Below, piece after piece: positions 11,616 through 46,024 of a stretch of DNA of 64,000 nucleotides. Below the pieces are notes generated by a model. That model saw only the letters and a program-made list of their open reading frames with translations. It was not told the DNA's origin and did not search any database. How positions within the stretch are numbered: the first letter of the stretch is position 1; the number at the start of each line of letters is the position of its first letter. The translations under genes and the position numbers were made by a program. The DNA is from Actinomycetota bacterium (GTDB taxonomy: Bacteria; Actinomycetota; Thermoleophilia; RBG-16-64-13): the NCBI GenBank assembly GCA_018830645.1, contig JAHJSA010000076.1, positions 1 through 64,000 on the forward strand, read 5' to 3'.

Positions 11616-11966
11616 ATGGCGAAGAAGATGATTTTGACCGTCGCCCTCGCCCTCGTGGTCGTTCTGGCTCTTGGTGGAGTAGCCCTCGCGGCAACCCCCC
11701 AGGACATCTACAACGACTTCGCGGACAACGGGAAACTCGACGGGAGCTACAGCAAGGCTGAACTCGAGGCTTACCTGGCCGACGCCACGGTGCACCAGTA
11801 CGGCGATCCGTACAATCTGGGTGTCCTGGATACGCTGGTGAAGCAGATGCTCGCTTCGAGCACCACGACTACCTTCCCGTTCACCGGTCTTGAGATCGCT
11901 CTTATCGCCTTTGGCGCAGTCGCGCTGCTTGGCGGAGGGTTGGTACTGCGCAGGTCGGCTGGCTGA
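11616..11966 (+). CDS. Small exported protein with FPFTG sorting-like tail (copy A)
   Basis: 116 residues, ATG 11616 after AGGAGAAGGGAGA. A signal peptide (1-26, ending ALAA) leads to a mature domain with TPQDIYNDFADNGKLDGSYS and AYLADATVHQYGDP. It ends with a Thr run, FPFTG, a hydrophobic helix and RRSAG. That tail has the architecture of a sortase signal (LPXTG-helix-positive charges), with F for L. Copy B at 42917-43318 shares the core PQDIYNDY..DG.LDG.Y and the same tail. Function unknown. Each copy lies between an exopolysaccharide gene and a convergent BY-kinase, suggesting a surface-anchored partner of glycan assembly. Confidence 0.8.
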   Translation: MAKKMILTVALALVVVLALGGVALAATPQDIYNDFADNGKLDGSYSKAELEAYLADATVHQYGDPYNLGVLDTLVKQMLASSTTTTFPFTGLEIALIAFGAVALLGGGLVLRRSAG

Positions 11967-12136
11967 TCCACCCTTCTCGCCTAAGCAGGGCCTCCGACAG
12001 TCCTGTGGCCGGCAACGGGGGGTTGGCAACGCCGGTGCGGCGCCGCGGCAGTAGAGCATAGCCGGGCTGGAAGCCGCCGTGAATCGGCCCAGGATGGACC
12101 GAGAGGCGACTGGAGCCTAGGTCCACGGGAAGCACC

Positions 12137-12171
12137 GAAGACCCCGTTCCCCTTTGGGGGGCGGGGTCTTC
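12137..12171. terminator. Hairpin between convergent genes
   Basis: A perfect 10-bp stem GAAGACCCCG/CGGGGTCTTC with an inner CCCC/GGGG extension. It lies between the convergent FPFTG gene and BY-kinase gene. There is no clear T-run on either side, so it is a probable rather than certain bidirectional terminator. The preceding 11967-12136 holds no gene that I can see. Confidence 0.55.
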
Positions 12172-12226
12172 TCTATGGGCGGGACCGGATGACAGCGGCG
12201 AGTCGGGGGTCAGTCCTCTTGCCGGG

Positions 12227-13840
12227 TCAGTCCTTGCGGGAGGGGTACGAGCCGTAGCCGTAGCCACGGTAATGGTAGCCTTTGCCGGCCACCACGCCGG
12301 TGGCCACCACGCCGGTGAGACGGGCGTTCGTGCGGCCAAGCACCTTGCGCATCTCGCGGGCCTCGTCGATCGTGGTGTGGTGCATGCGGGCCGAGATCAG
12401 GACCCCGTCCACGTGTCCCGCGAGGATGAGCGCGTCGGCCACGAGCAGACACGGGGGCGAATCTACGATCACGTAGTCGGCCACCTCTGACGCCTTGACG
12501 AGAAGCTCCGCCATCTTGGCCGACGAGATGAGTTCCGACGGGTTCGGGGGCAGCGGCCCCGAGGTCACACAGTACATGTTCTTCTGGAGCAGGCCGCCCT
12601 CGGACTCGTGCCCCCGGCCGCTACGCCGGGCCTCACTCGGCGAGAAGTCGTCCACCCGCACCAGCTGCATGGCTTCGGCCAGTGAGTGGGTGCCGGCCAG
12701 CACGTTCGACACGCCCACGTCGTTCCCGAGCTCCAGGTAGCGATGCACCATGGGGCGGCGCAGGTCGGCCTCCACCACGAGCACGCGCAGGCCGGAGAGG
12801 GCCAGGCTGAGGCCCAAGTTGATCGTGGTGACCGTCTTCCCCTCTTGCGGAAGGGCGCTGGTCACGAGCAACGTACGCAAGGGGCGATCGACCTCGAAGT
12901 ACTGCAGGTTGGAGCGCATCGTGCGGAAGGCCTCGAGGATGGGAGAGTCCAGGCTACCGAACCCGACGGAGGCGGTGGAACGCTTGTCGTCGGGATGGGC
13001 CCACTTCTTGCCGATGCGGGGCACGTGCGCGATCACGGGCAGGCCGAGTTCGCGGGTGAGCGTCTCCTCGTCTTTGATGCGGCGGTCGAGATACTCGAGC
13101 AGGAAGGCGGCGCCCACGCCCAGCACCAGTCCCACCGCCAGGGCAAGGATGCCGTCGCGCAGCGGCTGCGGGTCGAACGGCCCGGTGGGCACGGAAGCCA
13201 ACTGCGTGAGGATGAATCCCCCACTCTGCAACTCCTCGATCACGGCCAGCTCCTCGAGACGTTGCACGAGGAACACCCCGCGGTTGCTGGCGAGCTCCGA
13301 CAGGGTGAGGGCGTTCACCTGCTTCTCGACCACCTGGATCGCCAGGCTGATGGCCTTCTTATCGGACTCGGCTTGGTGGGCGACGTACTCGCGGGCGAAG
13401 GAGTTGGCCAGGGCGGCCGCTTCGTCGGCCGAGGTGCTCGTGGCGGTGACCCGCACGAGGTCGGCGTTGGTGGCAACCACGGCTTCGACCATACCGCCCA
13501 GCTCTTCCGCCGAGAGCGGGGAGTCCAAGGCGTCCTTCACCCGCAGGGCCACCGCTTCGATGTTCACGTTCTGCGCGCTGGTCTCGAGCAGGCGCTTCAC
13601 GTCCTGCGTCTCGAAGACGCGGCTGCCGAACAGCGTGTTGGTGAGGGTGTTGGGGTCGCGGGTGAGCACCGCTGTGGCGCGGTAGCGCGGCGTCCGTGTG
13701 AGCGAGAAGGCCAGGGCTGCCGCCACGACCACGAGCAGGATGGCGGCGACCACCCACTTCCGCTCTCGAAGGACGCGGAGGTAGTCCGCTAGCTCGACGG
13801 GCTCCTCGGTGTCGGTGTAGGTGGTCTCAGGCGTTTCCAT
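12227..13840 (-). CDS. Polysaccharide co-polymerase / BY-kinase (Wzz + CpsD fusion), copy A
   Basis: 537 residues. The N-terminal Wzz domain starts ELADYLRVLRERKWVVAAILLVVVAAALAFSL, a second membrane helix is at about 205-230 (ILALAVGLVLGVGAAFLLEYLDRR), and a cytoplasmic P-loop kinase follows: Walker A SALPQEGKTV (K about 335), Walker A' VEADLRRP, Walker B YVIVDSPP. The C-terminus YHYRGYGYGSYPSRKD is the autophosphorylated tyrosine cluster. BY-kinases control chain length and export of capsule or exopolysaccharide through cycles of Tyr phosphorylation. Copy B is at 44423-46024. The start overlaps the 3' end of cysQ by 52 bp. Confidence 0.92.
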   Translation of the reverse strand: METPETTYTDTEEPVELADYLRVLRERKWVVAAILLVVVAAALAFSLTRTPRYRATAVLTRDPNTLTNTLFGSRVFETQDVKRLLETSAQNVNIEAVALRVKDALDSPLSAEELGGMVEAVVATNADLVRVTATSTSADEAAALANSFAREYVAHQAESDKKAISLAIQVVEKQVNALTLSELASNRGVFLVQRLEELAVIEELQSGGFILTQLASVPTGPFDPQPLRDGILALAVGLVLGVGAAFLLEYLDRRIKDEETLTRELGLPVIAHVPRIGKKWAHPDDKRSTASVGFGSLDSPILEAFRTMRSNLQYFEVDRPLRTLLVTSALPQEGKTVTTINLGLSLALSGLRVLVVEADLRRPMVHRYLELGNDVGVSNVLAGTHSLAEAMQLVRVDDFSPSEARRSGRGHESEGGLLQKNMYCVTSGPLPPNPSELISSAKMAELLVKASEVADYVIVDSPPCLLVADALILAGHVDGVLISARMHHTTIDEAREMRKVLGRTNARLTGVVATGVVAGKGYHYRGYGYGSYPSRKD

Positions 13841-14703
13841 CCGGCCACACGATACACGCTGAACCCCCTGCTACTCAAGGGCCAGGGTGCGGAGGCGGCC
13901 CGCACCACGAACCAGGGGTTCAGAAGCTGCTCGCGGTTGTAGCGGAGGGGGCCTCCGTCGGCGAAGGCGAGGGGCCCTCCGGTGGGCGCCCCGCCGCGCA
14001 GCACCACACGCACCTCGCCGCCCGCAGCCTCCACGACCGCTTGGCCTGCGGCGGTGTCCCACTCCATGGTGGGGCCCAGGCGCGGATAGAGATCGGCGCG
14101 CCCTTCGGCGACCAAGCAGAGCTTCAGTGAGCTTCCGGCCGACACCCGCTCGGCCACCCACAGGCCCTCCAGGTACTGTTCCAGCTCGGGTGAGGGGTGG
14201 GAGCGGCTCTGCACCACCGCGAGCCCCTCGGCGGGGGGCGTGGAGCGAACGGTAATGGGCCGGGGTTCCTCGCCCGCCTCCTGCACGAAGGCGCCCAGGC
14301 CCCGCCCGCCCGCATAGAGCCGGTCGAGGGCGGGAGCGTACACCGCACCGGCCACCGGCGCGCCCTCCTCGATGAGGGCCACGTTCACGGTGAACTCGTC
14401 GAGTCCCTTGACGAACTCCTTCGTGCCGTCGAGAGGGTCCACCAGCCACAGACGGTTCCAGGCACGCCGCTCTTCGTAGGGGATCTCGCGACCCTCCTCG
14501 GAGAGCACGGGGATGCCTGGGAAGCGCGCCTCGAGCCCGGCGGCCAGCACGCGGTGCGACTCGCGGTCGGCGAGAGTGAGGGGCGAGCCGTCGGCCTTGT
14601 CGACGGCCTCGAGGGCGGCGTCGCCCGCGCGATACACCTGCATGATGGCCGCGCCGGCCTCGCGCACCAGGGCGCACAGCTGCATGAGTCCGGTCAGATC
14701 CAT
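13789..14703 (-). CDS. cysQ: 3'(2'),5'-bisphosphate nucleotidase CysQ
   Basis: An inositol-monophosphatase-fold phosphatase that hydrolyses PAP, the by-product of PAPS use, to AMP. The metal-binding motifs are LSEEGREIPYEER, WLVDPLDGTKEF and MEWDTAAGQAVVEAAGG. CysQ proteins usually end soon after LLNPWFVV. Here a 35-residue Pro/Arg-rich tail runs on into the start of the BY-kinase gene, an odd extension likely due to loss of the original stop. I start at ATG 14703 (GAGGCG upstream), although the frame is open to 14745. Its proximity to cysCDN and sulfotransferase genes fits a PAP-recycling role. Confidence 0.88.
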   Translation of the reverse strand: MDLTGLMQLCALVREAGAAIMQVYRAGDAALEAVDKADGSPLTLADRESHRVLAAGLEARFPGIPVLSEEGREIPYEERRAWNRLWLVDPLDGTKEFVKGLDEFTVNVALIEEGAPVAGAVYAPALDRLYAGGRGLGAFVQEAGEEPRPITVRSTPPAEGLAVVQSRSHPSPELEQYLEGLWVAERVSAGSSLKLCLVAEGRADLYPRLGPTMEWDTAAGQAVVEAAGGEVRVVLRGGAPTGGPLAFADGGPLRYNREQLLNPWFVVRAASAPWPLSSRGFSVYRVAGWKRLRPPTPTPRSPSS

Positions 14704-15006
14704 CGTGCGCCTCGTTTCCCAGGCCGGGCGCCGCGGAGGCGGCACCGGCTCGTGTCTCGTGTGTATCTCTCGTGTCTCGGCGTGCGACGGTGGCCCTATG
14801 CGGCCGCGAGCGGGAGCCGCGCGACGATGTCGCAGAGCCTACCACGGCGACCGGAGCCAAGCGGCGACCTGAGCCTGCCACGTTGAGCGGAGCCAAACGA
14901 TGAGCGGAGCCGCTTCCTCCGCCTCGAACCACTCACACGATGGGCGTCGCACTGATACCATCCCCCGGGTGTCGTTGTCGTGTGGTGTGCCTATCGGGAG
15001 GGCGGG
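14704..15006. other. Divergent intergenic region between cysQ and permease
   Basis: About 300 bp between divergent genes, so it should hold promoters for both. It contains three scattered copies of GCGGAGCC (around 14885-14915) and repeated TCTCGTGT (about 14755-14778). I recognise no riboswitch and no convincing -35/-10 pair. Confidence 0.4.
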
Positions 15007-16791
15007 GTGTCGTTCCACGCAGTGCTGACGGTGGCTGTGGTGGTGGCCATGATCGCGGCGTTGGTGCTCGAGCTGATCGAGCCCGACGCCGTCGTGTTCA
15101 CCGGGCTCACCGTGCTCTTGGTGGGCGGGGTGCTCACCCCCAAGGAGGCGCTGTCCGGCTTCGCCAACGAGGGCATGCTCACCGTGGCCGTGCTCTTCAT
15201 CGTGGCCCACGCCGCCCGCTCCTCTGGGTCGCTCACGCTACTCGCCAACCGCACCATGGGCCGGAGCGCCGGCGGGCCACGTTCGGTGCTGCGCATGATG
15301 GGCCCGGTGGCGGGCGTGTCGGCGTTCCTCAACAACACGCCCATCGTCGCCATGTTCACTCCCACCATCCGCGACTGGGCGCTCAAACGCGGCCTCGCGC
15401 CCTCGAAGTTCCTCATACCGCTCTCCTACGCCGCCATCTTCGGGGGTACCTGCACGCTCATCGGCACGAGCACGAACCTCGTGGTGAGTGGCATGCTGCT
15501 GGAGGCCACGGGGAGCCCCCTCGGCATGTTCACGCAGGCCTGGGTGGGCATACCGGCCGCCATGGTAGGCGTAGCGTTCATGGCCACCCTCGGCTACCGC
15601 CTCCTCCCTACCCGCAAGGACCCCGCCGAGGAGTTCGCCAGCGGCGGGCGCGAATACGTCTTCGAGTTCCGCGTGCCCGAAGGTAGCAGCGTCGAAGGGA
15701 AGACCGTGGAGGAAGCGGGTCTGCGGCAACTGCGCTTCGTGTACCTCACCGAGCTCGCGCGGGCGGGCGGCGCCGGGCAGACCTTCTCCCCCGTGCACCC
15801 CGGGGAGAAGCTCATGGGAGGCGACCGCCTGGTCTTCGCCGGCTCGGCGGCGAGCGCCGTGGAGCTGCAGGAGCTGAAAGGACTCGAGTCGATGCACGAC
15901 GCGGAACACCTGGATCACGTGCGCGACCGCGGCCACGGCCGCGTCGTCGAGGCCGTGGTCTCGAGCTCCTCGCCCATGCTCGGCAAGACCATCCGCGAGG
16001 GCGATTTCCGCGCCCGCTACGACGCTGCCGTGCTGGCCGTGCACCGCCGCGGCCACGAGATCACCTCCGGCTTGGGCCAGCTCCGGCTGCGCCCCGGCGA
16101 CACACTGCTCCTGCTCAGCGGCGACGACTTCCTGAAGCGCTGGAACCAGGCGCGCGACTTCTACATGGTGAGCAAGGTGGCCGATCTGCAGGCCTTCGAC
16201 CGCCGCAAGGCCACCATCTCGCTCGTTGCCCTCGGCGGCATGATCCTGCTGGCCGCGACGGGTGTCTTGGACATCCTGCCCGCCGCCATCCTCGCCGCCG
16301 TCGTGCTCGTGCTCACCCGCACGGTGACGGTGGTGGAAGCGCGGCGCTCGCTCGAGATCAACGTGCTCGTGGTGATCGCCGCCGCGCTCGGCATCAGCAA
16401 GGCGCTCGAGAAGACCGGGGTGGCGAGCGCCGTGGCCGGCGCGCTCATCGGGGCGGTCGAGCAGTTCGGCTTCGTGGCGCTCATCGCGGCCGTGTACCTG
16501 GTGACCACCTTCTTCACCGAGATCATCACCAACAACGCCGCGGCGGCCATCATCTTCCCCATTGCCATGGCCACCGCCGCCCAGACCGGCGCCGACCCCC
16601 TGCCCTTCGCCGTCACCGTGGCCATCGCGGCCTCCGCGAGCTTCGCCACTCCCATCGGCTACGCGACCAACCTCATGGTCTACGGTCCAGGCGGCTACCG
16701 CTTCACCGACTTCGTGAAGGTGGGCGTCCCCTTGAACCTGCTCTTCTTCGTGGCCACCATTGTCGTGGTGCCGCTGGTCTGGGGGCCGTGA
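15007..16791 (+). CDS. SLC13-family permease with two RCK_C domains, probable sulfate transporter
   Basis: 594 residues from GTG 15007 (GGGAGGG just upstream). Membrane halves flank a soluble centre: the first half has FLNNTPIVAMFTPTI and GTSTNLVVSG, the second TEIITNNAAAAIIFPIA and ATPIGYATNLMVYGPGGY, the paired substrate/Na+ motifs of the DASS/ArsB superfamily. Between them, at about 205-285 and 300-380, lie two TrkA-C domains that may bind a regulatory ligand. Proteins of this layout often transport sulfate. The genes immediately downstream (cysC, cysD, cysN) make that the best guess, though dicarboxylate or arsenite is not excluded. Confidence 0.85.
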   Translation: MSFHAVLTVAVVVAMIAALVLELIEPDAVVFTGLTVLLVGGVLTPKEALSGFANEGMLTVAVLFIVAHAARSSGSLTLLANRTMGRSAGGPRSVLRMMGPVAGVSAFLNNTPIVAMFTPTIRDWALKRGLAPSKFLIPLSYAAIFGGTCTLIGTSTNLVVSGMLLEATGSPLGMFTQAWVGIPAAMVGVAFMATLGYRLLPTRKDPAEEFASGGREYVFEFRVPEGSSVEGKTVEEAGLRQLRFVYLTELARAGGAGQTFSPVHPGEKLMGGDRLVFAGSAASAVELQELKGLESMHDAEHLDHVRDRGHGRVVEAVVSSSSPMLGKTIREGDFRARYDAAVLAVHRRGHEITSGLGQLRLRPGDTLLLLSGDDFLKRWNQARDFYMVSKVADLQAFDRRKATISLVALGGMILLAATGVLDILPAAILAAVVLVLTRTVTVVEARRSLEINVLVVIAAALGISKALEKTGVASAVAGALIGAVEQFGFVALIAAVYLVTTFFTEIITNNAAAAIIFPIAMATAAQTGADPLPFAVTVAIAASASFATPIGYATNLMVYGPGGYRFTDFVKVGVPLNLLFFVATIVVVPLVWGP

Positions 16792-16803
16792 CCCGACGGC
16801 TGA

Positions 16804-16816
16804 TACAATGGGGCCC
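16804..16816 (+). promoter_or_regulatory. Possible -10 box of cysC, leaderless
   Basis: TACAAT (16804-16809) ends 7 bp before the cysC ATG at 16817, with no Shine-Dalgarno between. This resembles the leaderless arrangement at 2772, 7610 and 40170. No clear -35 is present. The gene could also be read from the permease promoter. Confidence 0.4.
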
Positions 16817-17407
16817 ATGGCAACCGAGTCGAAGAACGTCGTCTGGCAAAGCTACAGCGTCGACAAGACGAAGCGCCGCACCCTCAACGGGCACACCTCA
16901 TTGCTGGTGTGGTTCACCGGGCTCTCCGGGTCGGGCAAGAGCACCATCGCACGCGAGGTCGAGGCCCGCCTGCACGAGCGTGGCGTGCGCACCTACGTGC
17001 TCGACGGCGACAACATCCGCCACGGCCTGAACGCCGATCTTGGCTTCTCCGACGACGACCGCCGCGAGAACATCCGCCGCATCGGCGAGGTGGCCAAGCT
17101 GTTGGTGGACGCCGGGGTCGTAGTGCTCTCGGCCTTCATCTCCCCCTTCAGGGAAGACCGCGAGGTCGTCCGCCGGCTCTTCGAGCCGGGCGAGTACGTC
17201 GAGGTGTATGTGTCGTGCGGGCTGGACGAGTGCCGGCAGCGCGACCCGAAAGGCCTGTACGAGAAGGCGTTCGCGGGTGAGATAGCGGAGTTCACGGGGG
17301 TGAGCAGCCCCTACGAGGAACCACTGGAGGCGGAGCTGGTGTTGGATACAGGGAGGGAATCGGTGGAGGAGTCTACGGACCGCGTGCTCGCGCGGCTGGG
17401 CCTGTGA
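16817..17407 (+). CDS. cysC: Adenylylsulfate kinase CysC
   Basis: 196 residues. Phosphorylates APS to PAPS with ATP. The P-loop is GLSGSGKS (35-42), then [34 protein letters not shown], the APS-binding segment, and [39 protein letters not shown] is the C-terminal lid. Full length and with all catalytic residues, in contrast to the degenerate kinase-like domain at the end of the CysN-like protein two genes downstream. The stop overlaps cysD by 4 bp (GTGA). Confidence 0.95.
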
Positions 17408-18339
17408 GCGGGGCCGCGGCCGTGCCGGGCGGCGCCACGATGGAGCGCGGTGCCCTACCCGCGCACCTCAAGAAGCTCGAGAACACCTCGGTGCACATCA
17501 TGCGCGAGGCCTACGCGAACTTCTCGAACCTCTGCATGCTCTGGTCCATCGGCAAGGACAGCACGGTGCTCCTCTGGTTGGCGCGCAAGGCCTTCCTGGG
17601 CCACGTGCCCTTCCCCCTGGTGCACATCGACACCTCGTACAAGATCCGCGAGATGATCGAGTACCGCGACCGCTTCACGCGCGAGTGGGGCCTGCTCATG
17701 GTGTACGGGCAGAACCGCCAGGCGCTCGACGCCAAGCAGACCTACCCCGACGGCGCCATCGACCGCATCGCCTGCTGCACGAGCCTGAAGACCGAGGCGC
17801 TCAAGCACACGCTCGACGGCAGCTGGCCGCGCTACCGCTTCAACCACGAGCTCGACCGCTACGAGGTCGACCCGAACAAGGAGCCGTACAACGGCGTGAT
17901 CGTGGGCGCCCGCTCCGACGAAGAGGGCTCGCGCAGCAAGGAGCGCTACTTCTCGGCCCGCGACCGGGCTTCAAACTGGGACATCGCCGAGCAGCCGCCC
18001 GAGTTCTGGAGCTACTACAAGACCGACTTCGCCCCCGGCACCCACGTGCGCGTGCACCCATTGCTCGACTGGACCGAGCTGAACATCTGGGAGTACATCA
18101 AGTACGAGAGCATCCCCACCGTCTCGCTCTACTACGACCGGGGCGACGGCACGCGCTTCCGCTCGCTGGGTTGCGAGCCGTGCACGGACCCGATCGAGTC
18201 CGACGCCCGCAACGTGGAAGACATCATCGAGGAGCTCAGCAGTGGCCGGCTGAAGAACGTGGCCGAGCGCTCTGGGCGGGCCCAGGACAAGGACGACGGC
18301 GGCGGACTTGAGACCCTGCGCCGCGACGGGTACATGTAG
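17404..18339 (+). CDS. cysD: Sulfate adenylyltransferase subunit 2 (CysD)
   Basis: 311 residues. A PP-loop ATP pyrophosphatase-type subunit that forms APS from ATP and sulfate together with the GTPase CysN. Motifs: [19 protein letters not shown] (PP-loop), [51 protein letters not shown] and [11 protein letters not shown]. The GTG start overlaps cysC, and an internal ATG (about residue 13) is also possible. cysN begins immediately after its stop. Confidence 0.95.
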
Positions 18340-20319
18340 ATGAAGGACGACGCGATGACCGACACGATCGCCGGGAGCGCGGTATCCGGCGCCGCCTCAG
18401 GCGCGGGCGCCCCGGATGTCGCGACGGGGGCCGCCGCCGGCCTCGCTGCCACCGCCGCGAGCGCCGCCTCAGGCGCGGGCGTCGCGATCGGCCCCGACTC
18501 CACGGCCATGAGCATCGTGATCGTGGGCCATGTGGACCACGGGAAGTCCACGGTGATCGGGCGCCTGCTGGCCGACACGAACAGCCTGCCCGACGGCAAG
18601 CTGCAGCAGGTGAAAGACCTGTGCGTGCGCACCTCGAAACCTTTCGAATACGCCTTCCTGCTCGACGCCCTCAAAGACGAGCAGGCCCAGGGCATCACCA
18701 TCGACTCCGCCCGGGTGTTCTTCAAGAGCGCCCTGCGCCACTACATCATCATCGACGCTCCGGGCCACATCGAGTTCCTCAAGAACATGATCACCGGCGC
18801 CGCCCGGGCCGAGGCCGCCCTGCTCGTCATCGACGCCCAGGAGGGGGTGCGCGAGAACTCCCGCCGCCACGGCTACATGCTCTCCATGCTCGGCATCGAC
18901 CAGGTGGCCGTGCTCGTGAACAAGATGGACCTCGTCGGCTACAGCGAGGAGCGCTTCCACGAGATCCGCGACGAGTACACCGCCTTCCTCGAAGACCTGG
19001 GCGTGGAGCCCGCCGCCTTCGTCCCGGTGAGCGGCGTGGAGGGCGAGAACATCGCCGCCCCCGGCGCCCTCATGCCCTGGTACGACGGGCCCACCGTGCT
19101 CCAGGTGCTCGACGGCTTCGGTGAGGTGTACGCCGACCTCGAACTGCCCTTCCGCATGCCGGTGCAAGACGTGTATAAGTTCACCCGCTTCGGCGACTCC
19201 CGCCGTATCGTGGTGGGCACCGTTGCGGCCGGCAGCATCGCCGTGGGCGACGAGGTGGTGTTCTACCCCTCGGGCAAGAAGTCCGAGGTGGCCTCGATCG
19301 AGACCTTCCCGGCACTTCCGGAAGGCGGGACGGCCCCTGCGGTTCTCCCCACCGACGCCGTCGGCTTCACCCTCACGGAACAACTCTACGTGAACCGAGG
19401 TCAGCTGGCCTGTCGTGCCGACCAACCCTCGCCCCGCATAGCCACCCGGCTGCGCGCCAGCGTGTTCTGGTTGGCCCGGGAAGCGATGACCAAGCAGAAG
19501 GAGTACCTGCTGCGCGTGGGCACCACGAGGGTGCCGGTGTGGCTGGAAGAGATCACCCGTGTGATCGACGCCTCCACGCTGGCCGCCATCCCCGACGCCG
19601 ACCGCATCGGCCGGCACGACGTGGCCGAGTGCGTGCTGCGCTGCGAGTTGCCCGTGGCCTTCGACATCGGCGCCGAGCTCACCGAGACCAGCCGCTTCGT
19701 GCTGATCGACGACTACGAGATCAGCGGCGGCGGCATCGTGCAGGACACCCTACTCGACGACCAAGCCTGGGTGCGCGACACGGTACTCCTGCGGAACGTC
19801 AAGTGGGAGCGCGGCAGCATCTCGGCGGAAGAGCGCAGCCGCAAGTACGGGCAGAAGCCTGCGCTGGTGCTCTTCACTGGTTCGGCGAACTCGCGCAAGA
19901 AGGACCTGGCCAAGGCCCTCGAGCGGGAACTCTTCGCCCAGGGCCGCTCCACCTACTACCTGGGCATCGGGAGCGTGGTGTACGGCATCGATGCCGACCT
20001 CAAGCAGCGGGCGCCCGACAGCCTGCACCAGAATCGCGAGGAGCACCTTCGACGCTTCGCCGAAGCGGCGCACCTGTTCCTCGACTCCGGCCTGATCCTT
20101 GTGGCCTCGGCCATCGACATCGGCGAAAGCGATCTAGCCGTGCTCACGGCCGTACTCGACGGCGCCGAGATCGTCGTCGTGGGCGTGGGAGACAAGGACG
20201 CCGCGCGCGAGTTCGCCCACCTCCACGTTCCCGAGGCTGAAGAAGCCGGCGACACCGACATCCACGTGATGCGCACCTGCGCGCTTCTGGAGCAGCGCGG
20301 CGTTGTGCCGCGGGGCTGA
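18340..20319 (+). CDS. cysN: CysN sulfate adenylyltransferase GTPase with degenerate C-terminal kinase domain
   Basis: 659 residues. The elongation-factor-like GTPase has G1 GHVDHGKS (63-70), G3 DAPGH and G4 NKMD, then two beta-barrel domains to about residue 490. The last 150 residues align in layout with the APS kinase part of CysNC fusions, but the P-loop reads [10 protein letters not shown] where GxSGxGKST is expected, so ATP binding is unlikely. The N-terminal 55 residues are Ala/Gly-rich with no predicted fold. An internal ATG just before [11 protein letters not shown] is an alternative start. With an intact stand-alone cysC in the operon, the tail may be structural or regulatory. Confidence 0.92.
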
Positions 20320-38528: not shown

Positions 38529-38578
38529 CGTCACTGCAAGCATAACAGCGAACGGGACCGGCGGGAGTCCGACAGTGG

Positions 38579-38584
38579 TAGTAT
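38579..38584 (+). promoter_or_regulatory. -10 box upstream of phosphoglycosyltransferase
   Basis: TAGTAT at 38579-38584 lies 48 bp before the ATG at 38633 in the 104-bp divergent gap. A -35 is not obvious. It is the same -10 form seen upstream of both FPFTG genes. Confidence 0.4.
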
Positions 38585-38632
38585 GCGAATGAACCGACCG
38601 ACCTCTCGTGAACAATCCCCTGGTGATTCCCA

Positions 38633-40096
38633 ATGACTCAGCGAACAAGCACGCTCACCGACTCCACGAAGACCGACCGGCCCCTACCGCGGCGGATACT
38701 AACCATACTCGATCCTGCTGCCGCCGCCGTGGCGCTCGTGGGCAGCACGTACGCGCTACCGTTGCGCTACGTGCAGGGCACGATGCCCCGCGTAGCCCAC
38801 ATCATCACTTTGGTTCTCCTCGGTCTTGTGCTGATGCTGCTCCTGTTCCGAGATGACCAGTACACGGCCCGCAGGCGCATGACGCGACTGGCCGACTTCG
38901 GCTCCGTAGCGAAGAACCTTGCTCTGGCCTACATGGTGGTCATCGCGGCCTCCTTCGCCACCAAGGGGTTCTTCACCGGGTACGTGGCGCTGTCGAGGCT
39001 CGTGATCCTGGTGCACCTGTTCGTCCTGCTCGGCCTCATGCTCGCTTCGCGGTACGCGTTGTGGGCCTATCAGACACGACTCTTCCGCGAGGGCGAAGCG
39101 ACCCGCCGCATACTCGTGGTCGGCGGAGGCGGTGCGGCGACCGACCTAGTGGCGTTCCTCGACAAGAGGCAGTGGCTCGGCGTTCACTGTGTGGGCTCCC
39201 TGTGCGTGGGCGAGCGGGGCGACCATCTCCCCACCAGTGACGGACGCCTCGTCCCTCTCGTGGGCACCGTGCGCGAAGTGCGGACGGCACTGACTCAGAC
39301 CGGCGCCGACGAGGTCATCGTCGCGCTCGACAAGAACGAGGCCCAGCATCTCCCCGAGATCACCGATCTCCTCACGGCGGCCGGCGTGCCTTACCAACTC
39401 GTGCCGTCGCTCTTCGAGCAGTCCTACCGCAAAGCCAAGCTCTCCGGCCTCGCCGAGCTGCCCGTGGTCGAGATGGCGGTCGATCCGCTCGACGAGGTGC
39501 AGCGCACCTTCAAGCGCGCGTCGGATCTGGCGATCGTGGTGACTGCGCTGGTCGTGGGATCGCCCTTACTGCTGCTCATCGCCCTCGCTGTCAAGCTCAC
39601 CTCCCCGGGCCCGATACTGTTCCGTCAGGAGCGGGTGGGAGCCAAGGGACGGCACTTCCAGATGCTCAAGTTCCGCACGATGGTGCAGGACGCCGAGGCG
39701 CGGCTCGGGGAGCTGGAGGAAGAGAACGAAGCCGAGGGCCACATCTTCAAGATGAAGTCCGACCCGCGCATCACCTCGGTGGGGAGCTTCCTTCGCCGGT
39801 GGAGCCTCGACGAGATCCCGCAGTTCTTCAACGTGTTGCGGGGCGAGATGAGCGTGGTCGGGCCTCGGCCCCCGCTCCCTCGCGAGGTCGCGGAGTACCA
39901 GACGCCACACTTCGCCCGGCTCAAGGGCCGCCCCGGCATCACCGGTCTCTGGCAAGTATCGGGCAGGAGCGACCTCACCTTTGACGAGATGGTGAAGCTC
40001 GACAGGCACTATCTCGAGAACTGGTCGATCGGCCTCGACCTGACCATCCTCGTGAAGACGATCTATGTGGTGTTCGCCGGGAAGGGCGCGTACTAG
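38633..40096 (+). CDS. Polyprenyl-phosphate sugar-1-phosphate transferase (WbaP/WcaJ type)
   Basis: 487 residues. Four to five N-terminal membrane helices, a Rossmann-like central domain (RILVVGGGGAATDLVAFLDKRQW) and the catalytic bacterial sugar transferase domain: FKRASDLAIVV, SPGPILFRQERVGAKGRHFQMLKFRTM, SLDEIPQFFNVLRGEMSVVGPRPP (catalytic DE dyad), RPGITGLWQVSGRSDLTFDEMVKLD. It starts repeat-unit assembly by placing a sugar phosphate on undecaprenyl phosphate. First gene of the plus-strand part of the second exopolysaccharide locus. Confidence 0.93.
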   Translation: MTQRTSTLTDSTKTDRPLPRRILTILDPAAAAVALVGSTYALPLRYVQGTMPRVAHIITLVLLGLVLMLLLFRDDQYTARRRMTRLADFGSVAKNLALAYMVVIAASFATKGFFTGYVALSRLVILVHLFVLLGLMLASRYALWAYQTRLFREGEATRRILVVGGGGAATDLVAFLDKRQWLGVHCVGSLCVGERGDHLPTSDGRLVPLVGTVREVRTALTQTGADEVIVALDKNEAQHLPEITDLLTAAGVPYQLVPSLFEQSYRKAKLSGLAELPVVEMAVDPLDEVQRTFKRASDLAIVVTALVVGSPLLLLIALAVKLTSPGPILFRQERVGAKGRHFQMLKFRTMVQDAEARLGELEEENEAEGHIFKMKSDPRITSVGSFLRRWSLDEIPQFFNVLRGEMSVVGPRPPLPREVAEYQTPHFARLKGRPGITGLWQVSGRSDLTFDEMVKLDRHYLENWSIGLDLTILVKTIYVVFAGKGAY

Positions 40097-40157
40097 GAGC
40101 GCGCCCGACCGAGCATGCCACCAGGCTCCGCTCTCTCCCCTCGGATGGCGTTCGTAG

Positions 40158-40169
40158 TAGAATGCCCGC
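40158..40169 (+). promoter_or_regulatory. -10 box with leaderless spacing
   Basis: TAGAAT (40158-40163) is followed after exactly 6 bp by the GTG start at 40170, the same hexamer and spacing as at abiEi (7598-7610). Confidence 0.45.
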
Positions 40170-42770
40170 GTGAACGGAGCCGCATACCAGCGATCGGGCG
40201 CCACGCCCTCCTCGCCCCGCGAGCGCGTACTCAACGCCGCGCCGATCGCCGGTCTGGTGGGCGTATGGCTCCTCCTGGCCTTCTCGTACGGGGGATTCCA
40301 ACACAGGCAGTGGCTCCTGCCGGGGCTGGGCGTCGCGCTCTTCGGGCTGGTGGCCGGTCTTTCGGCCGGGTACCCGCGGCGGCCGCGGGAGCTCTCTCTT
40401 GCGGTGTTGGGGGCGTTCGCCCTCTACGTGGTGTGGGTGGGCGCGTCGTTCTTCTGGGCGGACTCACGCGATGCAGCCTTCGAAGAGGCCGGGCGGTCCG
40501 CGCTGTATCTCGTGGTACTGGCGTTGGCCCTCACGTACCTCACCGACAGGAACGCCCGGCGGGTGTTCCGCTATCTCGTGCTCCTCGGGGGACTGGCGAT
40601 CGTCGGACTCGTGTCGTACCGGCTGTTGACCGTCGACGCTGCGGGCATCGGACTCCTCTTCACCGGCGGCAACCGTTTCAGCTATCCGGTGAGCTACCCA
40701 AACAACGCGGCCGCCCTCTTCCTCGTGCTCTTCTGGCCGCTCGTGTCGCTCGCCTCCGACCGCGCCGAGTTCGCGCCCGTCCGAGGCCTGGCGCTGGGAG
40801 CCGCCTCCGGCCTCATCTGTCTTGCCGCGCTCCCCCAATCACGGGGAGCGCTCTATGCCCTGATCATCACAACGATCCTGATGTTCGTGCTGTCCCCCAC
40901 CCGTCTGCGTACGCTCGTGTTCCTGCTGACGCCCGTCGCTCTGCTGGTGTGGGCGTTCCCCGACCTCAACCAGTATTGGGTGCGGGGGGCCGAAGAGATG
41001 GGGGGCATGACGGCTGCCCGCATCGTCCTGATCGCCGTCGCCGTGGCGACCGGCGTGGGCCTCGTGCTGGCGATCCTGGAGCGATGGGTGCATGTGAGCG
41101 GCCGGATGAAGGCGGTCTTCGGCACGATCGCCGTGCTGGTGACCGTGGCTTCGCTGTTCGTGGGCTACCAGGCATTCGAGCGCCGGGTGGGCGAACCTCG
41201 AGAGTGGCTGAGCGCCACATGGGAGCGTTTCACGGCCGACCAGATCACCACGCTGTCCGGAACGAGCGATTCGATGCGGGCGGCCGAGGCCTCGTCGCGG
41301 CTGGCGGTCCTGTCCACGAGCGGACGCTGGGACCTCTGGCGGGTTGCCTGGAGAGCGTTCGAGGCGGAGCCAGTCACGGGGGTGGGAGCCGGCAACTACA
41401 TGTACTACCACGATGAGTGGCGCAGGAACAAGAACGCCAAGGTCAGGCAGCCGCACAGCATCGAACTCAGGGTGCTCTCGGAGACCGGGGCGGTGGGTGC
41501 CGCGCTTCTCTTCGGGGCGTTCGCACTGGGTGCGGGCGGCATCCTCTGGGCCCGCTATTCGGCCGCATGGCAGGGAGCCAGGCACACGTGGCTCCGGCGG
41601 AGAGACCGGCGCTCGCCCGACGACTCCCGTCCAAACGACGCCGTCCGCGGGCCCGACGTGGAGTTCCTGGGTGGACGTTGGGGCCTCGACTCCTCCGAAT
41701 ACGCCTGGGAGGTAGCGCTGCTCATGGGCTTCGCGTACTGGCTGGTGCACGGCAGCGTGGAGTGGCTCTGGCACATGCCCGGTGTCGCGATGGTCGCGCT
41801 TCTGTTGTTCGCGGCAAGTGTCGCTTCGATCGACGCGCGGGCGGGCGTCATGTGGCCCCGTTGGGCGGCTCTCATCGGCCGAGGCGGCTCGACGCACCGC
41901 GCCGCGAACCAGCCCCCAGATGGTGACTCCGGCGAGGACGACCCCGCCGACGACGACCCCACTGAGGATGAAGACCTGGCCGCGCCGGCCGACAGGACGG
42001 GCAGTCAGGGCATGGGCGCTTTGGGGACGATACCGCTCTACGCGGATGCCCCCTTCACCGGGTACCGGCGCGCAGACCGGCACCGCGACAAGCGGAACAG
42101 TAAGGACCGCCGCTCCGAGCGACGATCGACCCGCCGCGGTGGTGGCTCCAGCTCACTCTGGCCTCCCGGGCCGCTTTCCGTATGGTTCCGGGGGTGCCTG
42201 ATCGCGGGGTCGCTGGCGGCGCTTGCGGTGCTCACACCCCAGTACCTGTCCCTGCGTTACCAGGATCTCGCTCTGGCGAACTCGTCGGCAGACAGCGCCG
42301 CCGCCCTCGGAGCCGCGGCCACGGCGGCGCGGCTTCTTCCCATCTCACCAGCTCCGCTCACCACCACAGCCGACGTCTACGAGACGGCCGGCCGCCTGGC
42401 CGACGCCGATCGCCCCGCGGGTCAGGGGGCACGGCTCGACGCTCTCGCTCTGACCCTCGACGCGAGGGAGAGCGCGGTCGAACTTGACCCCTTAGCGTGG
42501 GCCCTCCACTTCAAGGCGGCGCTGGCGGCACTCCGGCTGGCCGAGGCTCTCGAAGAAGGAAACGTGGCGACCGAAGCCGGCAGCACCTCCGACTCCCCCG
42601 CACTCACCCCGGAAGCGGTGGCCACCGCGGCGCACCTACGCGATCTCTCCCCTGAAGAACTACGGGAGTCGGCCCGTGCGCACCTCACCACGGCCCAGGA
42701 ACGCAATCCTCTGAATGCCCAAGTGGCACGAACGCTCCTCGAACTCGACGAGCAGGCCACCATCCCCTAG
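40170..42770 (+). CDS. O-antigen ligase/polymerase with C-terminal repeat domain
   Basis: 866 residues, GTG start. 10-12 membrane helices with the ligase loop GRWDLWRVAWRAFEAEPVTGVGAGNYMYYHDEW (Wzy_C signature, about 390-425). A long acidic, then basic, disordered linker (about 570-665) contains DDPADDDPTEDED. One more membrane helix (about 675-695) leads to an extracytoplasmic helical, TPR-like domain (YETAGRLADADR, LDPLAWALHFKAALAALRLAEAL). It joins or polymerises lipid-linked glycan repeats. The extra domain may bind the growing chain or a partner such as the small FPFTG protein downstream. Confidence 0.85.
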   Translation: MNGAAYQRSGATPSSPRERVLNAAPIAGLVGVWLLLAFSYGGFQHRQWLLPGLGVALFGLVAGLSAGYPRRPRELSLAVLGAFALYVVWVGASFFWADSRDAAFEEAGRSALYLVVLALALTYLTDRNARRVFRYLVLLGGLAIVGLVSYRLLTVDAAGIGLLFTGGNRFSYPVSYPNNAAALFLVLFWPLVSLASDRAEFAPVRGLALGAASGLICLAALPQSRGALYALIITTILMFVLSPTRLRTLVFLLTPVALLVWAFPDLNQYWVRGAEEMGGMTAARIVLIAVAVATGVGLVLAILERWVHVSGRMKAVFGTIAVLVTVASLFVGYQAFERRVGEPREWLSATWERFTADQITTLSGTSDSMRAAEASSRLAVLSTSGRWDLWRVAWRAFEAEPVTGVGAGNYMYYHDEWRRNKNAKVRQPHSIELRVLSETGAVGAALLFGAFALGAGGILWARYSAAWQGARHTWLRRRDRRSPDDSRPNDAVRGPDVEFLGGRWGLDSSEYAWEVALLMGFAYWLVHGSVEWLWHMPGVAMVALLLFAASVASIDARAGVMWPRWAALIGRGGSTHRAANQPPDGDSGEDDPADDDPTEDEDLAAPADRTGSQGMGALGTIPLYADAPFTGYRRADRHRDKRNSKDRRSERRSTRRGGGSSSLWPPGPLSVWFRGCLIAGSLAALAVLTPQYLSLRYQDLALANSSADSAAALGAAATAARLLPISPAPLTTTADVYETAGRLADADRPAGQGARLDALALTLDARESAVELDPLAWALHFKAALAALRLAEALEEGNVATEAGSTSDSPALTPEAVATAAHLRDLSPEELRESARAHLTTAQERNPLNAQVARTLLELDEQATIP

Positions 42771-42916
42771 ATCGGAGCCGGCGCGGGAGGAACACAGCCC
42801 CAGGATCGGAGCCCCGACGGTGGATCCGCCCCCCGATATCGACCCCACACGGCTGTATCCACTCGGGTGCACGTAGTATGATTATGAGGGACATACCATC
42901 GAGCAAAGGAGGACGC

Positions 42917-43318
42917 ATGCATAGGAAGATCGTCGCCATTCTGGTGCTTGCGGCGGCGGGTCTGCTCATGCTCGCGTCTGCGGCCCCCGCCGCCTCGCCT
43001 CAAGACATCTACAACGACTACGTCACCGACGGCAGACTCGACGGCCCGTACACCCAGACAGAGATCGACGCCTACCTGAACGACGCCACCGTGCGACAGT
43101 ACGGAGATGTAGGCACGCTGGGTTCGCTCGACGCTCTTCTGAAGGGGGCTCTGCCCTACCTCGAATCGGGCGACACCCTCTCCGATGCACTGGCCAAGGC
43201 TGCGGCCGGTGAACAGAGCGGGCGAAGCCGCTTCCCGTTCACGGGCCTGCCTCTGGCCGCCCTCGCCCTCGGGGTGCTCGGCGTCGTAGGTGGGATGGCA
43301 CTGCGCCGGCCCGCCTAA
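42917..43318 (+). CDS. Small exported protein with FPFTG sorting-like tail (copy B)
   Basis: 133 residues, AAAGGAGG before ATG 42917, and TAGTAT at about 42875 as a -10. A signal peptide (to about residue 27, ending APAA) is followed by SPQDIYNDYVTDGRLDGPYT and AYLNDATVRQYGDV, closely matching copy A (11616-11966). It then has a longer helical stretch than copy A (LLKGALPYLESGDTLSDALAK) and SRFPFTGLPLAALALGVLGV plus RRPA, again a sortase-like sorting signal with F for L. Function unknown; probably wall- or membrane-anchored. Confidence 0.8.
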   Translation: MHRKIVAILVLAAAGLLMLASAAPAASPQDIYNDYVTDGRLDGPYTQTEIDAYLNDATVRQYGDVGTLGSLDALLKGALPYLESGDTLSDALAKAAAGEQSGRSRFPFTGLPLAALALGVLGVVGGMALRRPA

Positions 43319-43342
43319 GGCCTGGCCCTCGTCTGAAAGTCG

Positions 43343-43370
43343 CACCGCCGGCCTTGGAACGCCGGTGGTG
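43343..43370. terminator. Hairpin between convergent genes
   Basis: CACCGCCGGC/GCCGGTGGTG forms a 10-bp stem (one G-U pair) with an 8-base loop, between the FPFTG gene and the convergent RodZ-like gene. There is no T-run, so confidence is moderate. The position mirrors the hairpin at 12137-12171. Confidence 0.4.
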
Positions 43371-43396
43371 ACCGGGCGGGGCCGGGCCGGGGCGCG

Positions 43397-43864
43397 TCAG
43401 CTCAGCGCCAAAGCAGCGAGCACCAGCCCCACTACTACCATCGCCCCGCCCGCGAACCTGATCCACAGCGCCGGCCGGTATTCCTCTGCGCCGCGCGCTC
43501 CCCATGGTTTCGCCCACGGACGACTCGTGACGGCCGACGGGGCCGTCCTCGGCAGGGCCCCAGGAATGCGCTCTAGAAGCGGGCACGGCTCCAGATCGAG
43601 GAACACGGCGTAACGCGCCACCATGCCGGGCGCGTAGGAACCGGAACCAGGTAGACGGTCGAACCGGCCCTCCTCCATGGCGGCGACGAAATCCGCGCGC
43701 ATGCCGAGGATCGCCCCTACCTGCGTGAGTTCATAGCCTCGACTGACCCGCGCCGCTTTCAGAACAGACCCCGCGTCGCCAAAATGGGAGAGGGCCTCGT
43801 GCGTACGTGTGGCGCGTTCCTGGGCGCCGGGTCGGGCCTCCTCCGCCGGCGACGGCACCACCAC
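43397..43864 (-). CDS. RodZ-like HTH protein with C-terminal membrane helix
   Basis: 155 residues. Cytoplasmic HTH_25-type domain (GSVLKAARVSRGYELTQVGAILGMRADFVAAMEEGRFDRLPGSGSYAPGMVARYAVFLDLE, about 32-92), a short linker, and a terminal membrane helix (IRFAGGAMVVVGLVLAALALS) with nothing beyond it. RodZ-type HTH domains bind cytoskeletal or membrane partners more than DNA. First of four such proteins around the BY-kinase. Confidence 0.72.
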   Translation of the reverse strand: MVVPSPAEEARPGAQERATRTHEALSHFGDAGSVLKAARVSRGYELTQVGAILGMRADFVAAMEEGRFDRLPGSGSYAPGMVARYAVFLDLEPCPLLERIPGALPRTAPSAVTSRPWAKPWGARGAEEYRPALWIRFAGGAMVVVGLVLAALALS

Positions 43865-43875
43865 GGCACAGATCC

Positions 43876-44439
43876 TCAGAGTATCTGCGGATAGAGGGAG
43901 ATCAGGCTCAACAGCACCCCCACCAGCAAGAAGAGCACGCCGAACCTGCGCAGACGAAGACCGGTGTCGATCTCCGGCACCGGATGACCGAACGCCAGGG
44001 CGACCGCGCGGGCCTGCCGGCTCTCGTCGAACAACAGGGGAGCACGCGAACGCGACTCGAACTGAGCCACGGGAATGGGCGGCTCGTCGCGATCGTCATC
44101 GTAGCTCCAGCCGGCGAACCAGTCCTCGATCACTTGTACGTCGAGCCCGAGCACCTCGGCGTACTCGGCCGTCAGCTTCATAGCGCGGTTCGACCCGAGC
44201 ACCCGCCCCCCCTGGTCGGTCTCTACGGCTTCGATGTACTCGACCCGCACGCCCAGGACCGCGGAGATATCCTCGAGGTCAAGCAGGCGGCCGACGCGCA
44301 CGTCGCGCAGAACGGGTCCGGCAGAGCCACGGCTCATCAGGGCGGCCCTCAGCCGGCCGGCGCCCACCTCCTGCCGGTCTACCCGGTCTGAGAACCGCCT
44401 CGCACCCGAGAGCTCCCGGCTCTCACTTCTGAGCGCCAT
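43876..44439 (-). CDS. RodZ-like HTH protein with C-terminal membrane helix
   Basis: 187 residues from ATG 44439, which lies inside the last codons of the BY-kinase gene (17-bp overlap), so translation is probably coupled. An HTH-like domain (VRVGRLLDLEDISAVLGVRVEYIEAVETDQGG...MKLTAEYAEVLGLDVQVIEDWF) precedes a membrane helix (RRFGVLFLLVGVLLSLISL) at the very end. No extracellular part. The overlap with the kinase suggests a partner or regulator of it. Confidence 0.7.
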   Translation of the reverse strand: MALRSESRELSGARRFSDRVDRQEVGAGRLRAALMSRGSAGPVLRDVRVGRLLDLEDISAVLGVRVEYIEAVETDQGGRVLGSNRAMKLTAEYAEVLGLDVQVIEDWFAGWSYDDDRDEPPIPVAQFESRSRAPLLFDESRQARAVALAFGHPVPEIDTGLRLRRFGVLFLLVGVLLSLISLYPQIL

Positions 44440-46024
44440 CGGAAACACCGTACCCGTAGCCGTAGTAGTAGCCCTTGCTGCGCGAGACGCCGCTCGCGAT
44501 CGCACCGATCACCCGAGCACTCGTGCGCTCGAGAGCCCGGCGTACCTCCCGAGCTTCATCTACCCTGCTGTGGCCGATGTGGGACGAGATGATCACGCCG
44601 TCCGCGAGACCGGCCAGACTGAGCCCGTCGGCCACCAGCAGGAGCGGCGGGGAGTCCACCAGCACGTAGTCGGCTATCTCCTTGGCGCTCTCGAGCAGCT
44701 CGGCCATCTTGCCGGAAGCTATCAGCTCGGTGGGGTTGGGAGGAATCGGCCCCGAGGTGACGCAGTACATGTTCTTCTGCAGGACCCGCGACCCAGGTCT
44801 GCCGGCCCCGGAGTGCGGCGGAGCGAAGCTCTCCACCCGCACGAGCTGTACGGCCTCGGAGAAGGTGTGCGTCCCCGCCAGGACGTTCGACACGCCCATG
44901 TCGTTACTCAGCTGCAGGTAGTTGTGCAGCATGGGCCGTCGTAGGTCGGACTCGATGAGCACCACTCTGGACCCCGATAGCGCGAGGCTGAGCCCCAGGT
45001 TGATACTGGTGACCGACTTGCCCTCCCGAGGAAGCGCGCTGGTGATCAGAATGGACCGGAGAGGCTTGTCCACCTGGAAATACTGGAGGTTGGAGCGAAG
45101 CGTGCGGAAGGCCTCGAGCGTGGGGGAATCGGCCTCCATGAACCCGATCGGCACTGCCGAGCGGCGCTTGTCCTCCTTGACCCACTTGGCCTTTCCCACC
45201 TGCGGCACGCGGGCCAGGACGGGGACTCCCAGGACCTCCGCGAGGGTGTCTTCGTCTTTGATGCGCCGATCGAGGTACTCGAGCAGCAGGGCGGCGGCGA
45301 CGCCGGCCACTAGCCCCACGAGGAGCGCGAGAGCGCTGTTGCGCACGGGGCGGGGGCTGAACGGCTGCTCCGGCACCGAAGCCCTCTGCACGATCTCGAA
45401 GCCACCGGTCTGCAAGGCTTCCAGGATCTGGAGCTCCTTGAGCTTATCGGTGAGAATCAGTCCACGCCCGGAGTCTCTCTCGGCCAGGGGAAGACCCTGG
45501 ATCTCCTGCTCGACCAACGCACTGGCCTCCGCCACAGCGCGGCGATCTGCGGTCCGCCGTGATTCGACGAACTGCTCCGCGAACGCGTCGGCGATCTGCG
45601 CCGCCTCAAAGGCCACCGTGCTCGTTGCGGTGATCAGGATGAGGTTGGTCTGGGTCTGCGGCCGCACCTCGATCATGCCGAGTATCGCCCGGTCGCTGTA
45701 GGACACGCCCAGTTCGCGACGGACCGCCTCAGCCACCACCTTGAGTCGCACGAGTCCGGCCCCGGTCTGCAGTTCCCGGTTGACGTCGCGCACGTCGAAC
45801 ACCTGCGAACCGGTCAACGCCTGTTCGAGCTTCGAGACCTTGTACAGCAGCTGGGAGCTCGCGCGGTACTTCGGTGTGGTGAGGAGCGAAAAGGCCAGCA
45901 CGACGGCCACAAAGGCAGCCGCCACGATGAGGATGAACCACAGGCGTTCCCGGATGACCCGGATGAACACGCCGAGATCGATGGTCTCCTGTTGGCCTTG
46001 GTTCTGATTCCGTGCTGAATCCAT
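44423..46024 (-). CDS. Polysaccharide co-polymerase / BY-kinase (Wzz + CpsD fusion), copy B
   Basis: 533 residues from ATG 46024. Wzz domain (IDLGVFIRVIRERLWFILIVAAAFVAVVLAFSLL), second membrane helix (ALALLVGLVAGVAAALLLEYLDRR), then the kinase: Walker A TSALPREGKSV (K336), Walker A' ESDLRRPM, Walker B YVLVDSPP. The C-terminal tyrosine cluster is YYYGYGYG. Same architecture and many identical segments as copy A at 12227-13840. Its neighbours here are RodZ-like genes; copy A has none. It regulates chain length and export of the locus polysaccharide. Confidence 0.92.
   Translation of the reverse strand: MDSARNQNQGQQETIDLGVFIRVIRERLWFILIVAAAFVAVVLAFSLLTTPKYRASSQLLYKVSKLEQALTGSQVFDVRDVNRELQTGAGLVRLKVVAEAVRRELGVSYSDRAILGMIEVRPQTQTNLILITATSTVAFEAAQIADAFAEQFVESRRTADRRAVAEASALVEQEIQGLPLAERDSGRGLILTDKLKELQILEALQTGGFEIVQRASVPEQPFSPRPVRNSALALLVGLVAGVAAALLLEYLDRRIKDEDTLAEVLGVPVLARVPQVGKAKWVKEDKRRSAVPIGFMEADSPTLEAFRTLRSNLQYFQVDKPLRSILITSALPREGKSVTSINLGLSLALSGSRVVLIESDLRRPMLHNYLQLSNDMGVSNVLAGTHTFSEAVQLVRVESFAPPHSGAGRPGSRVLQKNMYCVTSGPIPPNPTELIASGKMAELLESAKEIADYVLVDSPPLLLVADGLSLAGLADGVIISSHIGHSRVDEAREVRRALERTSARVIGAIASGVSRSKGYYYGYGYGVSDGAQK

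Follow-up and report, generated by a model that had tools for sequence, protein, structure and literature searches.

We analysed a 64,000-nucleotide stretch of DNA (the window; positions 1 to 64,000 of contig JAHJSA010000076.1) from an Actinomycetota bacterium of the class Thermoleophilia, in which two genes encode small exported proteins with FPFTG tails, here called mini-proteins. The two proteins are homologous and share one architecture with an anchor-like tail; genes of their family are paired with genes for one branch of ligase-type Wzy_C proteins, and many unrelated small exported proteins beside ligases of that branch carry the same short [QE]Y motif. A ligase with a dedicated acceptor is the simplest account of these observations. 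The FPFTG mini-proteins may thus be dedicated acceptors of a Wzy_C O-linking ligase (WaaL/PglL/WsfB-type), which are loaded with glycan and then anchored, and we put this reading at slightly under an even chance. The transfer of glycan, the Tyr as its site and the action of sortase are steps that we infer. The features on which the argument turns are as follows.

11616-11966, + strand: small exported protein 1, 116 residues; signal segment, helical core, FPFTG tail
42917-43318, + strand: small exported protein 2, 133 residues; architecture as protein 1, linker longer
11874-11888, + strand: FPFTG sorting-signal-like motif of protein 1, found by pattern search
43232-43246, + strand: FPFTG sorting-signal-like motif of protein 2, found by pattern search
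11799-11801, + strand: Tyr62 codon in protein 1 (VHQYGDP), a residue proposed as acceptor or for docking
43100-43102, + strand: Tyr62 codon of protein 2 (VRQYGDV), a position conserved in homologues
40170-42770, + strand: Wzy_C protein with helical C-terminal domain, proposed O-linking ligase (R245, R386, H429), just upstream of protein 2

A preliminary description of the window had proposed two short exported proteins with a common core and a sortase-like tail, and both points are borne out. Each open reading frame (ORF) is present, and the proteins align with 43% identity over 106 columns (BLASTP, expectation value (E) 3e-26). From the N to the C terminus they consist of a signal segment, a roughly 55-residue core (consensus PQDIYND..DG.LDG.Y....E..AYL.DATV.QYGD), a variable linker, FPFTG, a hydrophobic helix and an LRR end. 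In the predicted model of protein 1, built from 17 sequences, four helices form the core (residues 28-81), with a predicted local distance difference test score of about 85-91 per ten-residue block, followed by a looser linker and a tail helix. Foldseek returned 18 matches to this model, the best at E 5.7, and no solved fold below that value. Among the matches listed for the 29 members scanned against Pfam and NCBIfam, no model covers the core; the best values for these members were E 7e-4 (NCBIfam) and 0.0098 (Pfam), and the strongest matches were tail or membrane models. Immunoglobulin-binding protein G, the best PDB sequence match (E 0.0033, about 35 residues), was judged a chance hit, and the idea of an EF-hand or dockerin, raised by DG.LDG, was given up since the matches listed included no model of either kind. 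The source genome (3.87 Mb, 112 contigs) carries a third copy outside the window, beside another polysaccharide cluster and with no BY-kinase (bacterial tyrosine kinase) among its labelled neighbours. In the open-access PubMed Central literature, searched by titles and abstracts, we found no description of the family or of its pairing with a ligase.

Gene neighbourhoods were compared in 68 stretches around matches from the source genome and related genomes, many of them draft assemblies. Genes were called with a home-made codon model, and those for Wzy_C proteins, BY-kinases, sugar-phosphate transferases and epimerases were labelled by profile; the Wzy_C labels agree with independent Pfam positions in the window's own family and rest on the home-made profile in the others. 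Drift of the ligase profile was suspected, so eight doubtful labels were rescanned, and all eight scored above the Wzy_C cut-off. Stretch L088, which has a signal peptide alone in common with the family, was excluded; L089, a weak member without FPFTG, was kept, with its ligase position entered by hand from Pfam positions and confirmed as an ORF. Among the resulting 71 homologues, both window copies included, a direct neighbour was a Wzy_C gene in 52 cases, a BY-kinase gene in 11 and a gene for an initiating membrane enzyme in 15. The Wzy_C gene was adjacent in 16/22 members of the window's family, 26/33 of the other strong-match families, 2/2 of a further group and 8/14 of a remote set without the tail motif, mostly at a distance of less than 400 bp. 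The chance of a Wzy_C neighbour is about 0.4% per gene (94 Pfam matches in 18 genomes of the window's family), and the 16/22 adjacency would have P ~1e-34 on the assumption of independent copies, which holds only in part; homologues share ancestry, so none of these counts are independent events. Further out, the gene content varies from family to family: the window's family has BY-kinase and HTH_25 genes; in another there are murA-like and ATP synthase-like genes, recognised by eye, with an LCP protein (PF03816); elsewhere, sugar-phosphate transferases and transporter-like or glycosyltransferase-like genes. It is therefore the pair itself that forms the conserved unit.

The ligase of the window matches PF04932 at E 2.7e-16. 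In NCBIfam, TIGR03097 (4e-9) and TfpM (6e-6) match it far below their cut-offs, and the polymerase model TIGR04370 reaches only 0.048, also below cut-off. Its sequence had no match in the PDB up to E 10; its predicted model resembles WaaL (7tpg) best among PDB folds, with E 4.4e-4 and a TM score of 0.61 by target. It thus combines a Wzy_C domain with a WaaL-like fold, the fold having been compared for this one ligase. A quick tree of 85 Wzy_C proteins separated 36 partner ligases and 20 look-alike ligases from 29 other Wzy_C proteins, with a Shimodaira-Hasegawa-like approximate likelihood ratio test value of 99 on the branch. The partners include L068 and L074, which lie a few genes from the mini-protein; the look-alikes were picked by the late start of their Pfam match, and the 29 others include the nine remaining Wzy_C proteins of the source genome. 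The fetched stretches of 22 of these 29 genes lack a core ORF, and the other seven share a locus with a core gene that is a direct neighbour in none. In a larger FastTree, whose branches are long, 69 of 70 ligases of this type grouped at 97, with L175 outside. The partner ligases are longer than the other Wzy_C proteins (median 719 versus 501 residues), and tetratricopeptide repeat (TPR) matches in Pfam at E < 0.01 were found in six of the eight ligases scanned, five of them over the cut-off. R245, R386 and H429 are present in 53, 55 and 55 of the 56 ligases of the branch. We matched them by order within the domain to the Arg, Arg and His that PMC3643930 names for WaaL and PglL.

If the mini-protein is a substrate of this ligase branch, other ligases in it should have other small exported proteins nearby. 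The 20 look-alikes, which had no known core neighbour, were fetched with their surroundings. Core relatives appeared at L189, L193, L198 and L199, LPFTG-tailed non-core proteins at L188 and, about 2 kb off, near L197, and further small exported-looking proteins close to L190, L191, L192, L194, L196 and L200; no small exported partner was found at the remaining loci of this set. A ligase-profile search of 296 genomes of the phylum gave 45 positives, of which 21 belong to the window's class and 24 to one further family (f18). At 13 of 20 fetched f18 loci an exported protein unrelated to the core lies within 1 kb and ends in a sortase-type tail (LPETGG, LPDTGG, LPFTGG, LPSTG and LPTTGG among others). 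The f18 partners and the window proteins have a short stretch in common around a Tyr, often without a second Tyr in the mature part. This stretch reads QYGDP or QYGDV in the window proteins, QYGSP, QYGAP or QYTPR in f18, and EQYIENVPGAGG, QYGKK or QYPKK elsewhere in the class.

Proteins within 1 kb of a ligase were scored for [QE]Y among their first 120 mature residues, and the counts were compared with per-protein residue shuffling. The motif was present in 23 of 34 core-less small exported proteins near related ligases against 5.5 expected, a count reached in 0 of 20,000 simulations. Adjacent exported proteins carried it in 27/42 cases and distant ones in 6/20 (P 0.015); in the anchored adjacent subset, which was chosen afterwards, the figure was 20/24 (P 0.0006). 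The near-identical L262 and L267 were both counted. In a wider tree the type of non-core partner tracks the ligase sub-branch, with EQY..PGAGG in one and ICHKG in another, and ligases with core-type partners fall in two further sub-branches. Small exported proteins with TICHKG/TICHRT..HGD stretches (L191:4412-4828, L200:2219-2671, L287:5979-6428, L300:5115-5636) form a family of their own that adjoins one ligase sub-branch and is possibly another acceptor type.

The core was seen in one class only within the samples searched. A profile of the three copies in the source genome matched 25 of the 41 genomes of the relatives search at 0.01, and a 29-row profile matched 240 of the 399 genomes from the class at 1e-3, some by the tail alone; at 1e-6 the latter reached 16 of the 396 genomes from the phylum, all within the window's class. 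By a simple rule, 75 members have tails of the form FPFTG (21), LPFTG (11), LAFTG (10), other forms (11) or none (22), and the most conserved residues among them are Asp34 (73), Tyr62 (70) and Gly39 (70). The layout of an N-terminal signal, C-terminal pentapeptide, hydrophobic helix and basic end is that of an LPXTG-type substrate, of which FPFTG would be a variant. Curated sorting-signal models matched weakly in some of 29 members (NF058582 in seven, TIGR01167 in four and NF058583 in two; best E 7e-4), and none matched window protein 2. In the source genome the pattern [LF][PA]FTG occurs six times, against four for a reversed-pattern control; as a C-terminal tail it is confined to the three members of the mini-protein family, and the search found no further FPFTG-tailed protein. 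This genome has two full-length sortases and one fragment, and all of these lie on contigs other than those with the three mini-protein copies. The fragment (G000:C69:34248-34400; L009, L013) matches the sortase domain in its C-terminal part only, positions 72-124, with one TGA inside. A sortase was found in 52 of 61 genomes; its presence does not discriminate and was dropped as a test.

The surroundings of the two window genes and the proteins encoded there are:

9425-11485, + strand: membrane polysaccharide-biosynthesis protein, PF02719, upstream of protein 1 (scanned from 9101)
12137-12171, no strand: inverted repeat of 16 nt between protein 1 and the convergent kinase
12227-13840, - strand: Wzz/BY-kinase 1, convergent with protein 1
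38633-40096, + strand: sugar-phosphate transferase, PF02397, which starts lipid-linked glycan synthesis (domain scan)
43397-44439, - strand: two HTH_25 proteins (43397-43864, 43876-44439) between protein 2 and the kinase
44423-46024, - strand: Wzz/BY-kinase 2, 1.1 kb past protein 2

According to the preliminary description, both mini-protein genes follow an exopolysaccharide membrane enzyme and face a Wzz/BY-kinase gene across a hairpin. The upstream genes agree with this, namely the PF02719 protein before gene 1 and the Wzy_C protein of O-antigen-ligase type before gene 2. Both kinases are real and locus 1 is convergent, but at locus 2 two HTH_25 genes intervene; likewise, an inverted repeat is present at locus 1 but none was detected at locus 2 (43310-43420), and neither intergenic stretch scanned contained a terminator-like site. 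The link to polysaccharide loci holds more widely, since 60 of the 71 homologues directly adjoin a Wzy_C, BY-kinase or initiating membrane enzyme gene; a predominance of homologues away from such loci, which would have refuted the preliminary description, was not seen. Pairing with a BY-kinase does not hold as a general rule: the kinase gene is directly adjacent in 10/22 members of the window's family, 1/33 of the other strong-match families and 0/16 of the rest. The proposal of an accessory factor of polysaccharide export or wall attachment thus keeps its polysaccharide connection and loses its constant kinase partner. What persists is the Wzy_C ligase-type gene, and the likely role moves from export accessory factor to ligase acceptor. 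In genome G407 (L071:8536-11012), one BY-kinase is flanked on both sides by mini-protein copies, two in all.

By analogy with known pathways, the sugar-phosphate transferase would begin the glycan on a lipid carrier, Wzz/BY-kinase would control its lengthening, and it would then be flipped. The exported mini-protein would receive the glycan from the ligase, the likeliest site being the conserved QY-motif Tyr or a position beside it, and sortase would fix the loaded mini-protein to the wall via its C-terminal signal; where relatives have no xTG motif, the protein would be kept in the membrane by its C-terminal helix.

Several results weigh against this acceptor reading. Neither protein 1 nor its orthologue L065 has a ligase gene beside it. 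Pfam shows no TPR match in the window ligase, and the model of its helical C-terminal domain resembles TPR structures only weakly (E 0.07 and worse). The Arg, Arg and His are also present in 25, 29 and 26 of the 29 other Wzy_C proteins, so they cannot separate a ligase from a polymerase. Protein 1 has five Tyr and protein 2 six, Tyr62 included, and Tyr62 may be structural. No sortase match was found in five genomes with tailed members (G399, G594, G656, G536 and G650), which are 72-91% complete. Some partners lack [QE]Y (L272, L304 and L188, and the remote core-type L189, L198 and L199), and its presence in 6/20 exported proteins away from ligases means that part of the signal may be background. 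A first motif test on anchored non-core proteins, in which the filter and control admitted multi-pass proteins and core members, gave no difference (9/16 versus 14/33, P 0.54). Once the motif was fixed, 20 fresh ligase loci were retrieved; a small exported protein lay within 200 bp at nine of them (three of core type) and at 11 there was none. At these loci [QE]Y was found in 2/5 proteins against 0.77 expected under the earlier filter (P 0.17), and in 4/8 against 0.99 expected (P 0.009) under an exported-protein filter that was revised after the loci had been seen, bringing in L300 and L306. The support from the fresh loci depends on the filter and is suggestive rather than decisive, which tempers our confidence both in the acceptor reading and in a wider one. 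The wider reading holds that a protein-anchored surface polysaccharide is widespread in actinobacteria: each ligase of one Wzy_C branch (often with TPR) would have an adjacent small carrier, recognise a short QY motif that recurs in several unrelated families and load a Tyr with glycan, and anchoring would be by sortase or membrane helix. We offer it tentatively and regard it as somewhat unlikely.

The mini-protein could also be a non-covalent partner of the ligase, such as a chaperone, docking subunit or activity switch, that stays free of glycan; its QY stretch might, for example, bind the TPR domain. Adjacency, the compact predicted core, the conserved Tyr and the TPR matches on six of the eight ligases scanned would all suit such a partner. 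However, near related ligases the core is replaced by unrelated families that have little in common but the motif and an anchor, which fits a substrate better than a shaped regulator, and sortase-type tails fit surface display; we consider a purely non-covalent role unlikely, though deserving of weight. Less probable still, in our judgement, is a Wzy_C protein that polymerises repeat units, with the mini-protein as an anchored glycan-binding surface protein that holds the finished polymer non-covalently. Pfam Wzy_C covers polymerases and ligases alike and is blind to the difference, and the loci contain Wzz/BY-kinases as polymerase systems do. The TPR tails on the ligases speak against a polymerase, the sub-cut-off NCBIfam matches lean to O-glycosylation ligases (TIGR03097, TfpM) over TIGR04370, and a core of about 55 residues would be very small for a lectin.

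We think it very improbable that the mini-protein is an accessory of the BY-kinase with a part in export or chain-length control, a reading in line with the preliminary description. Gene 1 does adjoin a kinase and no ligase, and a kinase gene lies within three genes in 12/22 members of the window's family, but this falls to 3/33 in the other strong-match families and 0/16 in the rest; moreover, the BY-kinase domain is cytoplasmic, whereas the mini-protein is exported. An ordinary sortase-anchored surface protein, whose neighbourhood reflects no more than the general clustering of envelope genes, would explain the FPFTG, LPFTG and LAFTG tails and sits well with sortases in 52 of the 61 genomes. 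It would not explain why the neighbour comes from one Wzy_C branch, or why 22 of 29 stretches around other Wzy_C genes lack a core ORF and the other seven never have one as direct neighbour, and we find this explanation the least probable, with hardly any weight left to it.

The acceptor reading has partial precedents. In PMC3643930, PglL genes adjoin pilin genes in 21 of 31 cases, so that there too a Wzy_C enzyme with the Arg, Arg and His residues is encoded beside a dedicated small exported target. The target in the window's family differs from that account in being a non-pilin protein with a sortase-type or membrane tail, in an actinobacterium, with perhaps Tyr instead of Ser/Thr as acceptor. 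WsfB and PglL are described in PMC2943079 as having Wzy_C and a TPR motif, and Paenibacillus alvei glycans as carried on Tyr. The tyrosine O-glycosylation of the surface layer (S-layer) by WsfB is similar in its Wzy_C enzyme with a C-terminal TPR motif, its Gram-positive host and its Tyr-linked glycan; the acceptor there is an S-layer protein, whereas here there are mostly mini-proteins of 90-220 residues next to the enzyme, with a Tyr linkage as proposal. Actinomyces oris GspA is glycosylated and then anchored by sortase, according to PMC6381275, and the GspA/LcpA pair likewise joins an actinobacterial exported protein to a glycan transferase encoded beside it, although that transferase is an LCP enzyme and not Wzy_C. 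Sorted proteins tied to polysaccharide loci are also found in the PEP-CTERM/EpsH (exosortase) system as outlined in PMC1569441, and TIGR03097, a model from that system, gives a weak match to the window ligase; the C-terminal signal differs. The present case stands apart from PglL, WsfB and GspA in the size of the acceptor, in the position of its gene beside that of a Wzy_C ligase in many families of one class, and in that related ligases have acceptors from different families nearby.

Other features were noted in passing. Beside BY-kinase 1, positions 13789-20319 of the window hold what we take to be a sulfate-activation-like run (CysQ-type phosphatase, sulfate transporter, APS kinase, CysD and CysN); the surface polysaccharide may be sulfated. 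Two f18 genes beside shorter ligases (L310:3325-4239 and L311:5615-6538) have, by eye, a sulfotransferase-like start (GSGRSGT..). An AbiE-type toxin-antitoxin-like pair, also recognised by eye, occupies 7610-9152 of the window. Its second gene is broken into two frames (8254-8583 and 8580-9152), while the relative in L065 (7667-8533) is a single open frame. Four HTH_25 proteins lie around BY-kinase 2 (43397-49210), and the one at 46154-47689 adds a RodZ_C domain. The protein encoded at 54578-56635 has RCC1 repeats together with three stretches that match CWB2, a wall-binding domain.

Few pathways are known for fastening Wzx/Wzy-type polysaccharides in bacteria without lipopolysaccharide. If the wider reading is true, a Wzx/Wzy polysaccharide would be fixed to a Gram-positive surface without lipid A or direct attachment to peptidoglycan. 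If the acceptor reading is right, new O-linking ligases with short Tyr-containing targets would become available for glycoengineering. The gene pair names both the ligase and its presumed acceptor, and the short motif makes the question testable in the window's class and in a second actinobacterial family.

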